Of a stretch of 54,437 nt of DNA, positions 6,523 to 54,437 are shown piece by piece. The notes beneath the pieces are model-generated. The model did not search any database. It was given only the letters and a program-made list of their open reading frames with translations, and was not told where the DNA came from. The stretch's first letter is position 1. Every line of letters begins with the position of its first letter. Position numbers and translations under genes: made by a program. The DNA is from Fimbriimonadia bacterium (lineage in GTDB: Bacteria > Armatimonadota > Fimbriimonadia > Fimbriimonadales > JABRVX01): positions 1 through 54,437 of the forward strand of contig JABRVX010000029.1 in assembly GCA_039961735.1 (NCBI GenBank), given 5' to 3'.

Positions 6523-7389
6523 CTACTCCGCCAGACACCCGTAGATCCAGGTCATCCACTTGATGTTTGCGGCATTCGCGTCGCGCCGGCTTTGGTCTCG
6601 ATGCCAGCTGTCGCCGCAGGAAGCGGGCACGTCCGCGATGTTCATGGTAGGCTTCACCTGGTCCCATCGGTAGAACTTGGTGTGGCTGTCGAGGAACGTG
6701 ATGTTGAGGCCGCCTCCGTTCTCATTGAAGCCGGAGAGTGACTCGCCTTGCTTGCCTGCGATGTGGCGGGTCGAAGCACAGATGCCGGCGCAGTTCACGC
6801 ACATGTTATCCGTTTCATAGCCCTTGAACCTGTTGTGCCCGGAGATGGACACACACTCGTTGATGGTGGTTCGGTAGCTTCCCGGTACGGAGTCGGCGAA
6901 CCAGACGTTCTTGGCCTTCGAGCGAACCAGGCGTTCGCGAACGATAATCGCATTGTCGCCGCTGTACCAACCCCCAATTCCGACGTTCAATCCGATGTTC
7001 AGCCATCCGTGGTTGTCGTCCTCGGAGTAGTTCCACCGCGTCGCGAACTTCGCTGGGTTGTTGAGCCGCGTGTCGCGGTTCTTATCACGGGATGGGCAAA
7101 GCAGCACCTGCTTCGACTTGACGTAAGGTTGGATGAGCCCGGTCCAGATGTAGCCGGCCGGGAAGCTGTCCGGATTGTTGATATGCACGCGACCATAGAA
7201 CAGGGTGCCGTTCTGGTCGAGCGTATACATCGTGCCTGCCTTGCCGAGTTGATTGCTGTTGCTCGCGCACTGGGTCTTCATGGCGGCCTCGCGCGCCTGC
7301 GCGAAGACAGGGAAGAGAATTGCTGCAAGGATTGCGATGATTGCGATAACGACCAGCAGCTCGATAAGGGTGAAACCTTTTCGCTGCAT
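6523..7389 (-). CDS. Prepilin-type N-terminal cleavage/methylation protein (DUF1559-like)
   Basis: Type IV pilin or type II secretion pseudopilin-like secreted protein. It starts [18 protein letters not shown]: a short basic leader, the prepilin peptidase site G|FTLIE, then the hydrophobic helix. The following [11 protein letters not shown] is a hallmark of the large paralogous families in Armatimonadota and Planctomycetes. The C-terminal part has the [17 protein letters not shown] segment like the H-x-DGH region of DUF1559 proteins. The ATG at 7389 (288 residues) is chosen because GGGAGG lies about 9 bases upstream and an extended -10 at 7431-7439 overlaps the longer frame that begins at 7440. 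The minor-pilin role is inferred; no pilus assembly genes are in the window. Confidence 0.92.
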
Positions 7390-16930: not shown

Positions 16931-19900
16931 ATGAAACGCTTGTTTGTGTTTCTAATTACCGGATGGGGAGGGTTAGGACTGATCCTCGCGCCCTTGATCT
17001 GTAGCGCGCAGATTCAGCAGGACCCCCAACCTACCCCTGATCCGCCTGGAACGATTCGGCAAGTCACCTGGCACTTCCAGCAAGATCCCCTCGACAACCT
17101 AGCGCGGTCGTTCGGCGTGTACGTCGATCCTTTGGTGCCGCCGGCCTGGCAGATGCTGGGGAAGCTCGAGCTGGTCTACGACAGGAACCTACAAGACGAC
17201 TTCGACTTTCGGATCACCTCGGAGGGGTACAACAAAGTCCTGAACGTGGAGGGCGACAAGTTCGCCTTTCACGTCGAAAGGCCCTTCGTCGGAGAGGCAT
17301 CCGTGCGCTTCAAGGAGACTGATGCCACGCCCGCGGGCAACTGGGCCCTCGACGTCGGCGGCGTAATGTTCGGCCCCGTCGCCGGCAGGGACCCGGCCAA
17401 GTTCCACGTTCGGTTTGGCGGCACCTATAGCATAGATACGGGCATCACGCGGGCCGACAAGGCGTTAGCCTGGCACACCGTGAAGTGGAAGGTGAGCCAC
17501 GACTCGTCGCCTCTGCATATGAAGATGCACCGGTACATCGAGGTGTACTTTGACAACGTGCTGGTCGCTCGACACGGATACCCGTCGGGCATCCACTCGA
17601 TGAAGTTTGTCCACTGGCAAGGGGACGACGACGCGATTACGCACCGGGTACTCCTTGACGACATCTCGTTTGTCGAGACGCTGGGGGAGACCAACAGGGT
17701 GGCGCCCCTGTCACCCAACGTGGATGGCTCGCTCGACCCGCTTGGTGTCAGCACGGACGACTTCGACGTCATGTCTGAGGCGAGCGCAGCGGTGCGACAA
17801 TGTCTGGAGGCGGGCTACGCTGCATACGTGCAGATGGATGTCCCACCTGGGGCGGCAGCGCGCGTGTTGGGCGACCCGGAGGACCACTACGTGCATCTGT
17901 GGGTTAACGAGGCGGGCCAAGACACCCTGTCTGGAACGGCAAGAACCGTTGCCATCCCGCTCGATACGGTGCCCTTCTACGAGGTGCCATTTGGCGGTGG
18001 ATGGTATCGTGCGGTGTTCGGTGCAAACGGAGCTCTAGGCGTCTCCAAGCCGCCGCTCTGCAACGACTACGAGGTAAGCCCCGGCCTCTACTGGATCACT
18101 GCCGCCATCGTCCAAGGCGATGATCCCTTCTCGCGCATGGACGCACGTACGACGCCTCTCCTCACGCACGGCGGGTTCCCCACGCGCCTGCTGGCGTTCG
18201 ACGAGCGGCTCCTGCTCGTCCAGGGGCAGACGGTGACTGGGTTCGCGGAGGGCGAGGCGAAGCGGGTTCTCGTGGCCGCCCAGGCGCATGAGAAGTGGGG
18301 TACGTGGACCGGGGATCACACGACCAGGGTCGACCTGGCCGACAATAATATCGGGCAGACCGTCCTCTACCCCCGGCCCGAGTCCACCTACTACGCCCCA
18401 GGGCTGTACCGCGGAGTCGGGTCTTCCACCATGATGAACTTCGCCTACCGCCTGCCGGTCTCGGATACCGACCGTGGCAAGCTGCACAAGGTGGTGATCG
18501 AGTACCCGGTGGACGAGCCGCGCGACATGGTGTTCTCCGTGACCGAGATCCTGAAGTGGGGGCCCGACTTCGTGCACTCCCCGCGCGAGCCCATGTCCGC
18601 CTGCGTGTTCCTTGCGGGAAACACCATCACCTCGGAGCAGGAGCTCGGCTCGGTCGGAGGCCAGCCGCGGTCCATCATGCCTACCGCAGGGCCGCCGAGC
18701 TACGCCGAACGGACCTTCTACATCTATCCGGGCGGGTACCCCGACAGCCAAGGCGGTGGACAGCTCCTGGTGTCGGCGATGACGCGAACCGGCGGCATGC
18801 CCGCTGCCATCCGCGCGATCCGGGTGTACGTGCTCGAACAGGAGCTTCCCCCCGGGGCGCCCTTCTCCGTTGGCATTCCCACGGATGCGCTCGACCCTCT
18901 CCAGGTCGGCATGTACTTCGAGTCTCCGGGAGCCATGCGCAACGTGTTCGGCACGTGGGTCTCTGGCATCCCCGAGAAGGAGTACCAGAACGACTGGACG
19001 CGCGCTCCCACCTGCTGGAACCTACCCGCGAGGTACCACGCGCTGAAGAACTACATCGCCTACACACGGTACGTGAACTGGCACTTCCGCGACCAACTCG
19101 GCCAGGTGCCTGATTACCTGGACACGCTCAGCTTCGACGTGGTGTACTACGGCGAGGCGATGTTCCCCACGGACGTGTTCGACACGATGAACTTCGAGAT
19201 GGTCCCGGGTCAGAAGGTGGCTCGGCCCAACGTGGTCCCGGCGCCTCCAGTGAAGTACATCGGCGAGTTCATCGAGACGAACTCGTGGCCCAATGACAAC
19301 GCCCCAGGCTACTTCGCAGACTACTACACAACAATGCCGCCCTCACCCATCGCGGACTTCGACTTCGCCGGCTTCACCGCCGCGGTATGCCAAGGCAAGG
19401 GGCTGAAGTTCCTGCCCGTGATTGACTTCCGCGGCACGCCGGAACTGGACTACCTCTGCTTCCCCCGAAAGTTCACCGGCCACCCAGGCGACTCTTCCGT
19501 CAACGGCTGGAAGCCTGAGCACGTGGAGCAGAATGCCGATCACCCCAACCTCCTCCGCATGGTGTCCAACATCGGCATGGTGGCGACCGGCTTCTATATG
19601 ACGACGGAGACCACTGCCGACATGAGCCACGGCGGCGCGCTGAACGGAGGCTACAACCCTCTGCATCCCACGGTGCGGTCGCGCATCGTGCAGCTCGCAG
19701 AGGACCTCCACGAGCGCCTTCGCCCCTTCATGGCGGGCACCAACTACCTGGGTGGGTTGTTCGATAACGTGGGAGTCGGTTCGGTGGCGATCCTGATGGA
19801 CGAGAGGTCCTGCACCAACCAGATGATCACTCAGTTCAACGGGGCCATCTGGGATGCCGGACACCTCCAGAGTCAGTTCCCGATCGGCGACAACTACTGG

Positions 19901-20998: not shown

Positions 20999-22232
20999 GG
21001 CTTGCCGCAGGACGCGACCTCTCGGCGCGGCTTCGGCCGCCCCGAGAGGGGCGCTCGCGGCACTGCTCGCACTGATAGCACTCTCGCCTTGCATGGGCGT
21101 CGAGTACACCCACCGCTTGCTGTGGGGTGATATCTCCAGCGCAGGCTGGGGGCATCTCAGCAACAACGGCCATTACTTCTTGATCGGTAGGCCAGCATCA
21201 GGCGGCCCACGCCGCCTTATGCTAGATGGTAACCTGCTTCCTGAGGAGATTGGCGGCCTGACCGAGCTAACGCCCGGTGGAGTTGACGATGCGGGCAACT
21301 GGATGGTAGTGGGCAACCTGATCGAGTACCCAGGCTACGCACGTGTGATGTACAACGGAGTGATCCAGAACGAGAACTGGTTCGATGGTCCTTGGAGGTC
21401 GCTAATGGCGCACCTCAACCCGCAAGGGAAGATGATGTGGACGAATGGCAGCACCGTGCGTGCCACGGTGATGAAGCAGGGGGTGGACTATTCGGATCAG
21501 TGGACGGACGGGTGGTATGACAGAAGTTGGGACGTGACACCGGAGGGCAGGATTCTGTGGTGGGGCCGTGGATACGGAGAGGCCCAGCCCGAGCTGTGGT
21601 TCGACGGCGAGGCGCTCGCCCGCCGGTACGATCTGGGCGAGTGGGAGGTAACCCCTTCCGAGTGGGGCTCGATGCCCTGGCAGGCGAACGACTCGGGCGA
21701 AGTGGCGTGGGTGCTGCGTCGGTTAGTGGACGGTAGATACTACCGCTACCACGTCTTCAAGGGGGATTACGACCTGACTGCGGAGGTATTGGGACCGAAC
21801 CGCGACGCCCTTGACAGCTTTGCACGGATCAACTCCTCTGGTCGCGTGCTCTGGGGAAACGGATATCGCTTCTGGCTCGATGAGACACCCATGTTCTTCG
21901 ATCAGTCACTGCCTGACAACACCGCCTTCCCCCAACGGCTGAACGAACGCAACGACATCGTGTGGTACCGGCAGAGGTTCGTCGGCAGTCAGGGCAGCCG
22001 GTCGCTCTTCGTCAACGACTACGATCTCACTGCTGGGATCGGCTTGACCCAAGGCACCGCCTGGGGCGTCCAGGTGTGCGACCTGAACGACCGAGGCGAC
22101 GTGCTCTGGACGGTGGCCGACCCCACCACGCTCAAGTGGTCTCTCTACCTCTCCTCCCCCGTCCCGGAGCCGGGTTCCCTCCTGCTCCTGCTCCCGAGCG
22201 CGGCGTTGCTGCTGAGACGGCAAAGGGGGTGA
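20964..22232 (+). CDS. PEP-CTERM sorting-domain protein
   Basis: Secreted protein of about 422 residues. An arginine-rich N-terminus is followed by a hydrophobic signal core (GALAALLALIALSPCMG). Its body repeats the motif of residues such as LNDRGDVLW, INSSGRVLW and NDSGEVAW, like other bacterial extracellular proteins with N-x-x-G-x-V-x-W repeats. It ends SSPVPEPGSLLLLLPSAALL then LRRQRG: the PEP motif, hydrophobic span and basic tail that exosortase processes. The ATG at 20964 has AAAGGAT about 10 bases upstream; an ATG four codons earlier touches that site. The start lies inside the end of the 1355-residue gene (35-base overlap), so the two are coupled. The segment 22065-22174 is nearly identical to the gene at the right end of the window. 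Confidence 0.88.
   Translation: MASSSKSPLARRACRRTRPLGAASAAPRGALAALLALIALSPCMGVEYTHRLLWGDISSAGWGHLSNNGHYFLIGRPASGGPRRLMLDGNLLPEEIGGLTELTPGGVDDAGNWMVVGNLIEYPGYARVMYNGVIQNENWFDGPWRSLMAHLNPQGKMMWTNGSTVRATVMKQGVDYSDQWTDGWYDRSWDVTPEGRILWWGRGYGEAQPELWFDGEALARRYDLGEWEVTPSEWGSMPWQANDSGEVAWVLRRLVDGRYYRYHVFKGDYDLTAEVLGPNRDALDSFARINSSGRVLWGNGYRFWLDETPMFFDQSLPDNTAFPQRLNERNDIVWYRQRFVGSQGSRSLFVNDYDLTAGIGLTQGTAWGVQVCDLNDRGDVLWTVADPTTLKWSLYLSSPVPEPGSLLLLLPSAALLLRRQRG
22065..22174 (+). repeat. 110-base segment duplicated at 54257-54366 (inverted)
   Basis: Encodes GVQVCDLNDRGDVLWTVADP to the PEP motif. It matches the reverse complement of 54257-54366 at 109 of 110 bases; the single difference is G22161 against A, giving V for I before PEPG. 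Flanking coding sequence is clearly diverged. Confidence 0.9.
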
Positions 22233-54168: not shown

Positions 54169-54437
54169 TCACGCATCCCGCTCGCTGCCCCTGCGTGACC
54201 TCCTGCGCCGAGCGACGGCCATGAGCAGCAGCGCGGCGGCTACCAGTGCCGCACCCCCCGGCTCCGGGATGGGGGAGGAGAGGTAGAGAGACCACTTGAG
54301 CGTGGTGGGGTCGGCCACCGTCCAGAGCACGTCGCCTCGGTCGTTCAGGTCGCACACCTGGACGCCGCTGTAGTTCGTCACTCCCACCCCGGCGATCAGG
54401 TTCACGTCGTTGACGAAGAGGTCGTTCCAGCAGCGCG
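54169..54437 (-). CDS. PEP-CTERM protein, partial (5' end beyond window)
   Basis: The frame is open to the right edge and reads (R)CWNDLFVNDVNLIAGVGVTN, then a stretch identical to the gene ending at 22232, then SSPIPEPGGAALVAAALLLM and an arginine-rich tail. The PEP motif, hydrophobic span and basic end mark an exosortase substrate. Only the last 88 residues or so are visible; the protein start lies outside. 53987-54168 between it and lepB shows no gene. Confidence 0.85.
   Translation of the reverse strand, partial: RCWNDLFVNDVNLIAGVGVTNYSGVQVCDLNDRGDVLWTVADPTTLKWSLYLSSPIPEPGGAALVAAALLLMAVARRRRSRRGSERDA
54257..54366 (-). repeat. Inverted near-identical copy of 22065-22174
   Basis: 109 of 110 bases match the reverse complement of 22065-22174. 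It covers the stretch from GVQV to the PEP motif; beyond it the sorting tails differ. Confidence 0.9.

Follow-up and report, generated by a model that had tools for sequence, protein, structure and literature searches.

The window analyzed here is the whole of contig C29 (G000:C29:1-54437; 54,437 nucleotides) from a 3.24 Mb genome assembled in 77 contigs, of which the contig ends and chosen stretches were examined directly. It harbors two PEP-CTERM genes in opposite orientation that have a 110-bp module in common (Table 1). A first-pass annotation of this DNA had spoken of two such genes; the description is accurate for the first, which is complete, and applies to the second only as a 3′ end of 88 codons that runs off the contig. 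PEP-CTERM proteins are recognized by a C-terminal PEP motif, a hydrophobic helix, and a basic cluster that match TIGR02595. In a six-frame search with this model, both copies exceed the 16-bit cut-off (20.4 bits for the second copy and 17.1 for the first gene), and an hmmscan of the first gene remains below the cut-offs (TIGR02595, 13.8 with a cut-off of 16; Pfam, 14 with a cut-off of 20.7). An exosortase-type gene is present in the genome (C59:9240-9518; exo_archaeo core model, 53.8 bits, cut-off 23). Both C29 genes are presumably expressed and their products sorted.

Table 1. Features of the two PEP-CTERM genes in the window
Feature	Position	Strand	Description
Complete PEP-CTERM gene, 426 aa	20952..22232	+	ORF; signal-peptide-like N-terminus, predicted 8-bladed β-propeller (~aa 47-406), C-terminal membrane helix (aa 407-425), basic end
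Second recently shared stretch in first gene	21632..21716	+	85 bp, 95.3% identical to decayed fragment C58:6897-6981
Shared module, first copy	22065..22174	+	codons 372-408; last three strands of last blade up to PEP motif
PEP box, 26 nt encoding LS(T/S)PVPEPG	22149..22174	+	12 genome matches at ≤3 mismatches
Private membrane tail of first gene, SLLLLLPSAALLLRRQRG then stop	22175..22232	+	nearest tail C44, 62%; 24% to second copy over 66 bp
3′ end of second PEP-CTERM gene	54169..54437	-	88 codons 54172-54435, stop 54169-54171; upstream part lost at contig end
Private tail of second copy, GAALVAAALLLMAVARRRRSRRGSERDA	54172..54256	-	24% identical to first gene's tail
Shared module, second copy	54257..54366	-	109/110 to first copy
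Upstream block of second copy	54367..54437	-	same in C29 end, C41, C44, C57; one difference in C76

The product of the first gene is predicted to be a β-propeller, i.e., a circular array of four-stranded blades. The AlphaFold2 model (pLDDT 78) has strands over aa 52-403 followed by a predicted helix at aa 407-425, and VIA-align relates it to WD40-type propellers (Z of 14-16) and to the 8-bladed design Tako8 (Z of 13.3). A blade number of eight is suggested by the best-matching solved propellers. In Foldseek the TM-scores are low (TMq 0.21-0.42) and the top rows are acylaminoacyl peptidases, which are taken merely as propeller matches; therefore, a fold class but no family is claimed for this protein. 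In the model, the module comprises strands 372-378, 384-389, and 396-403 as well as the PEP motif, such that its 3′ border coincides with the start of the membrane helix. A full-length relative with a homologous last blade is encoded at C4:140193-141535 (38% identity over aa 11-363). Its last blade and PEP tail lie in another frame than the body, with the shift near the position of the 5′ border of the module.

The two C29 copies of the module are identical at 109 of 110 bases, lie in opposite orientation, and are 32,083 bases apart; a recount of the bases thus reproduces exactly the identity, orientation, and approximate 32-kb spacing that the first-pass annotation had given. The sole mismatch is a GTC/ATC (Val/Ile) exchange 13 bases ahead of the 3′ end of the module, and the longest exact match is 96 bases. 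The identity extends to silent positions, as had also been claimed, with 36/36 third codon positions equal within the module vs only 6/13 in the best-aligned stretch upstream of it. The flanks are diverged, in agreement with the same account: 35 of 54 aligned bases are equal in the upstream block (65%), where LFVNDYDLTAGIGLTQGTAWG stands opposite LFVNDVNLIAGVGVTNYSG, and 16 of 66 in the tails past the module (24%). The second copy is retrieved from its own genome with E = 7e-51, and none of 20,000 column shuffles reached an identity run as long as the observed one. The near-identity of the pair is real and far from chance.

The pair is not special. The proposed search of the genome with the 110-base segment returns six good copies (84-100% identity), all with sharp borders and all located 3′-terminally in a PEP-CTERM propeller gene or its remnant. 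C29 holds two of them; the others are in C57, C44, C76, and C41. Relative to the first copy, the module is identical at 109/110 bases in the C29 end, and the identity is 96% in C57, 91% in C44, 90% in C76, and 84% in C41.

No more than about 240 bases separate five of the six copies from a contig end, because these copies run into a longer near-identical repeat that was collapsed by the assembler. In 14/14 pairs tested, contig ends with a common repeat agree over exactly 100 bases, which is the mark of an assembler halting where a repeat of more than ~100 bases forks. The ends of C29, C41, and C44 coincide, apart from two further bases in C44, and the final 100 bases of C29 are those of C41; therefore, these copies are preceded by a longer repeat common to all three, and the contig into which it was collapsed is absent from the assembly. 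C57 and C76 also end together, with 100 bp in common that are partly non-coding, and their ends share an 80-base overlap with that of C58. The upstream shared part of five of the six copies leads into an assembly region that is missing or broken.

These observations bear on the reading that the module in the middle of C29 is an assembly artefact, i.e., a repeat misjoined into the contig. The fragmentation of the genome, the exact 100-base overlaps, and the position of most copies at contig ends would all suit such an error. However, the longest exact match between the C29 copies is shorter than the 100-base overlap at which the assembly branches, which makes a false join in mid-contig unlikely; moreover, the frame is open across both borders and two other gene groups display the same pattern. 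A chimera is accordingly regarded as highly improbable.

The copies do not share a single history along their length. In the upstream block (~70 bases), the C29 end is identical to C57, C44, and C41 (100%), C76 has one difference, and the first gene is only 65% identical. In the module, the second C29 copy is closest to the first (99%), followed by C57 (95%), C44 (90%), and C41 (83%). In the tail, the C29 end is closest to C57 (67%) vs 24% for the first gene, whose own tail is closest to that of C44 (62%). Upstream block, module, and tail thus each give different relationships, and one tree cannot fit all three. A simple full-length duplication is rejected, since identities differ from block to block, and the conflicting block-wise identities exclude a uniform divergence of full-length duplicates, which upholds the earlier preference for recent conversion over old paralogy. 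The borders of identity are sharp and the relationships on both sides of them conflict, as is expected for gene conversion. Of the earlier phrase “gene conversion or local domain copying”, conversion is supported by the block identities and “local” is not, the copies being scattered over five contigs.

The boundary at the sorting signal recurs in other genes. For a wider comparison, 57 PEP-CTERM 3′ ends were aligned ungapped in 1,596 pairs, with the body taken as the 96 bases before the PEP box, plus the tail; the ungapped score was used because gapped end-to-end scoring, with terminal gaps left unpenalized, was too noisy. Mean identity is 0.32 for the body and 0.40 for the tail. Pairs reaching at least 0.80 in either part occur only within the six-copy family and in two further groups. 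In the first (C58, C71, and the start of C44), propeller genes have 116-118 bp in common at 91-97% up to the PEP region, beyond which the tails are unrelated. In the second (C25 and C39), the pattern is a mirror image: the body is 52%, the PEP box 100%, and the tail 95% identical, with identity that begins just before the PEP box and runs through the tail and stop codon into the 3′ flank. Identity therefore starts or stops at the PEP box in three gene groups. The PEP box itself has 12 matches in the genome at up to three mismatches vs 0 for a reversed-pattern control. A recombining module near the sorting signal in a larger family, as the first-pass annotation had envisaged, is thus found in the six copies and in two further gene groups with the same breakpoint. 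Recent sharing inside the propeller body is seen in a separate trio (C49, C77, and C3).

On the basis of these patterns, the probable explanation is that paralogues have recently undergone homologous gene conversion, in tracts that stop at the PEP box, where homology ends. The members would constitute a genome-specific family of secreted β-propeller proteins with a PEP-CTERM sorting tail, among which stretches of coding DNA may be exchanged by homologous recombination without crossing over. A tract entering the last blade would extend to the PEP box and stop there for want of common sequence in the tails and in the intergenic DNA that follows, such that each gene retains its own membrane tail while the blade before it is made alike. 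In the mirror case of C25 and C39, the tract would have taken in everything from the PEP box through the tail into the 3′ flank, and its limit just ahead of the box would reflect the excessive divergence of the bodies. Homologous (RecA-type) recombination is the presumed agent, with a one-way transfer and a choice of donor copy implied. Replacement was in register, the upstream block being still homologous (65%) and the reading frame and predicted propeller architecture of the first gene intact, which fits homologous gene conversion. The cut points fall unusually neatly at the sorting signal; otherwise, this would be ordinary gene conversion.

Several copies are in decay. Upstream of the module, C57 and C76 each have an in-frame TAG and carry the palindrome GGGCGGGACGCCCG in an array, the tail of C76 is truncated with loss of the helix, and the C58 fragment (6897-6981), of the same gene type as the first gene, carries a TGA stop. 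At least two copies are thus decayed. From the TAG and TGA stops, the lost tail, and the C4 frame shift it follows that the family is turning over and that some shared copies are dead. The TAG codons and arrays of C57 and C76 and the truncated tail of C76 mark some shared copies as non-working, and these could stem from segmental duplication instead.

A copy-and-paste process is also considered, in which duplicated 3′ pieces of propeller genes are joined to new tails or bodies via short or illegitimate homology at the PEP box or palindromic repeats. It would account for the similar propeller-gene fragments that, like the decayed C58 fragment, adjoin palindrome arrays at C33 and C24, for the partly non-coding 100 bp common to the C57 and C76 ends, and for the tail and intergenic flank that C25 and C39 have in common as one unit; a Y1-type transposase, of a kind able to move such palindromes, is also present. 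The module of the first gene, however, sits in register in an intact propeller behind an upstream block homologous to that of the other copies, which denotes replacement and not insertion, and the process is considered unlikely.

Palindromic-repeat arrays occur at several contig ends (C58:6980-7122, C33:1-97, C24:31989-32208, C11:1-330, and C67:1-340) and consist of GGGCGGGACGCCCG with GTGCCAC or of GGCATCGCCGTCCCGGCGATG. Those in C58, C33, and C24 are joined to propeller-gene fragments, and the 48-bp unit of C33 keeps the frame open (VAMGYHTGGTPVPPPS). The single Y1-type (IS200/RAYT-like) transposase gene, at C59:226-546, is a candidate mover of such palindromes.

Incomplete copies with stops (C57, C76, and C58) beside a complete gene, together with one breakpoint region in three gene groups, are also what a cassette system might leave, in which variation of the last blade of expressed surface proteins, or of their pairing of body and anchor, would be drawn from the incomplete 3′ copies as silent donors, as it is from pilS for pilE. 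Against this, the module is homogenized and not varied, the copies are scattered with no recombinase or array seen adjoining them, and nothing points to an expression site; such a system is very improbable. Hardly more probable is a role of the PEP box as a preferred exchange point at which propeller bodies are re-paired with different exosortase tails, with truncated 3′ copies as the donor store, which would make it a shuffling system for the bodies and anchors of PEP-CTERM surface proteins.

Diversity-generating retroelements combine a reverse transcriptase with a template repeat, and a repeated segment of ~110 bp near the C-terminus of a surface protein is reminiscent of them. Unlike in these elements, the copies differ at other bases besides adenines, and the genome has no reverse transcriptase: a search for RVT_1 gave no match, and the same search was positive in 3/14 control genomes. 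At the sensitivity of that search, elements of this or any other reverse-transcriptase type are excluded.

Relatives that might represent a donor or an unconverted state were sought. A genome_contigs scan found none, the family level is occupied by this genome alone, and the class (113 genomes) returned weak matches in three other genomes. The weak matches inspected were of no help in this respect: L059, although a PEP-CTERM protein, has repeats of a different type, and L060 is a propeller-like repeat protein without a PEP tail.

Intragenomic gene conversion among paralogues of bacterial surface proteins is known from pilE/pilS of Neisseria and the Hop proteins of Helicobacter. As in those systems, short near-identical tracts with sharp borders lie inside otherwise diverged surface-protein paralogues. 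In contrast to them, conservation here applies to the terminal propeller blade, each gene has a membrane tail of its own, and neither an expression locus nor a silent array is apparent. The mechanism is known, and the setting is new; no report joining “PEP-CTERM” with “gene conversion” was found in the incomplete literature collection searched.

PEP-CTERM proteins have been described as numerous within a genome, with few recognized domains, rapid turnover, and a tail module of about 24 aa (Haft et al. 2006, PMC1569441), and they are among the fastest evolving proteins of their genomes (PMC1569441). That study describes lineage-specific spread of the tail module as well as gene duplication and loss, and “recombin” appears nowhere in its text. 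The present genome resembles those families in its many PEP-CTERM proteins and its exosortase-type gene but differs in that exchange ends at the tail, which is mostly left private. Recently amplified or disrupted β-propellers, in which blades are amplified within one gene, have been reported by Pereira et al. 2022 (PMC9218822). Rapid blade turnover, near-identical blades, and genes broken by stops or frameshifts are common to both cases, whereas the blade described here is common to genes on different contigs. Paralogue recombination with breakpoints at the sorting signal would provide a concrete route for the fast evolution of PEP-CTERM proteins. In genomes of this kind, assemblies from short reads are interrupted within such genes, whose number and full sequences are thus underestimated.

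Other repeats were observed along the contigs. The opposite end of C29 (1-115) also lies in a repeat, common to C75, C70, and C25 (72-115 bases, 99-100% identity). Just upstream of a 1355-aa ORF at 16931, 240 bases of C29 (16674-16912) match the start of C53 (16-252) at 92% identity, and this part of C53 itself matches C14:49603-49779 at 88%. The contig ends C7:6045-7536 and C42:1-1490 carry long stretches that resemble themselves at an offset of about 74 bases (70-75% identity) and are probably one tandem-repeat region.
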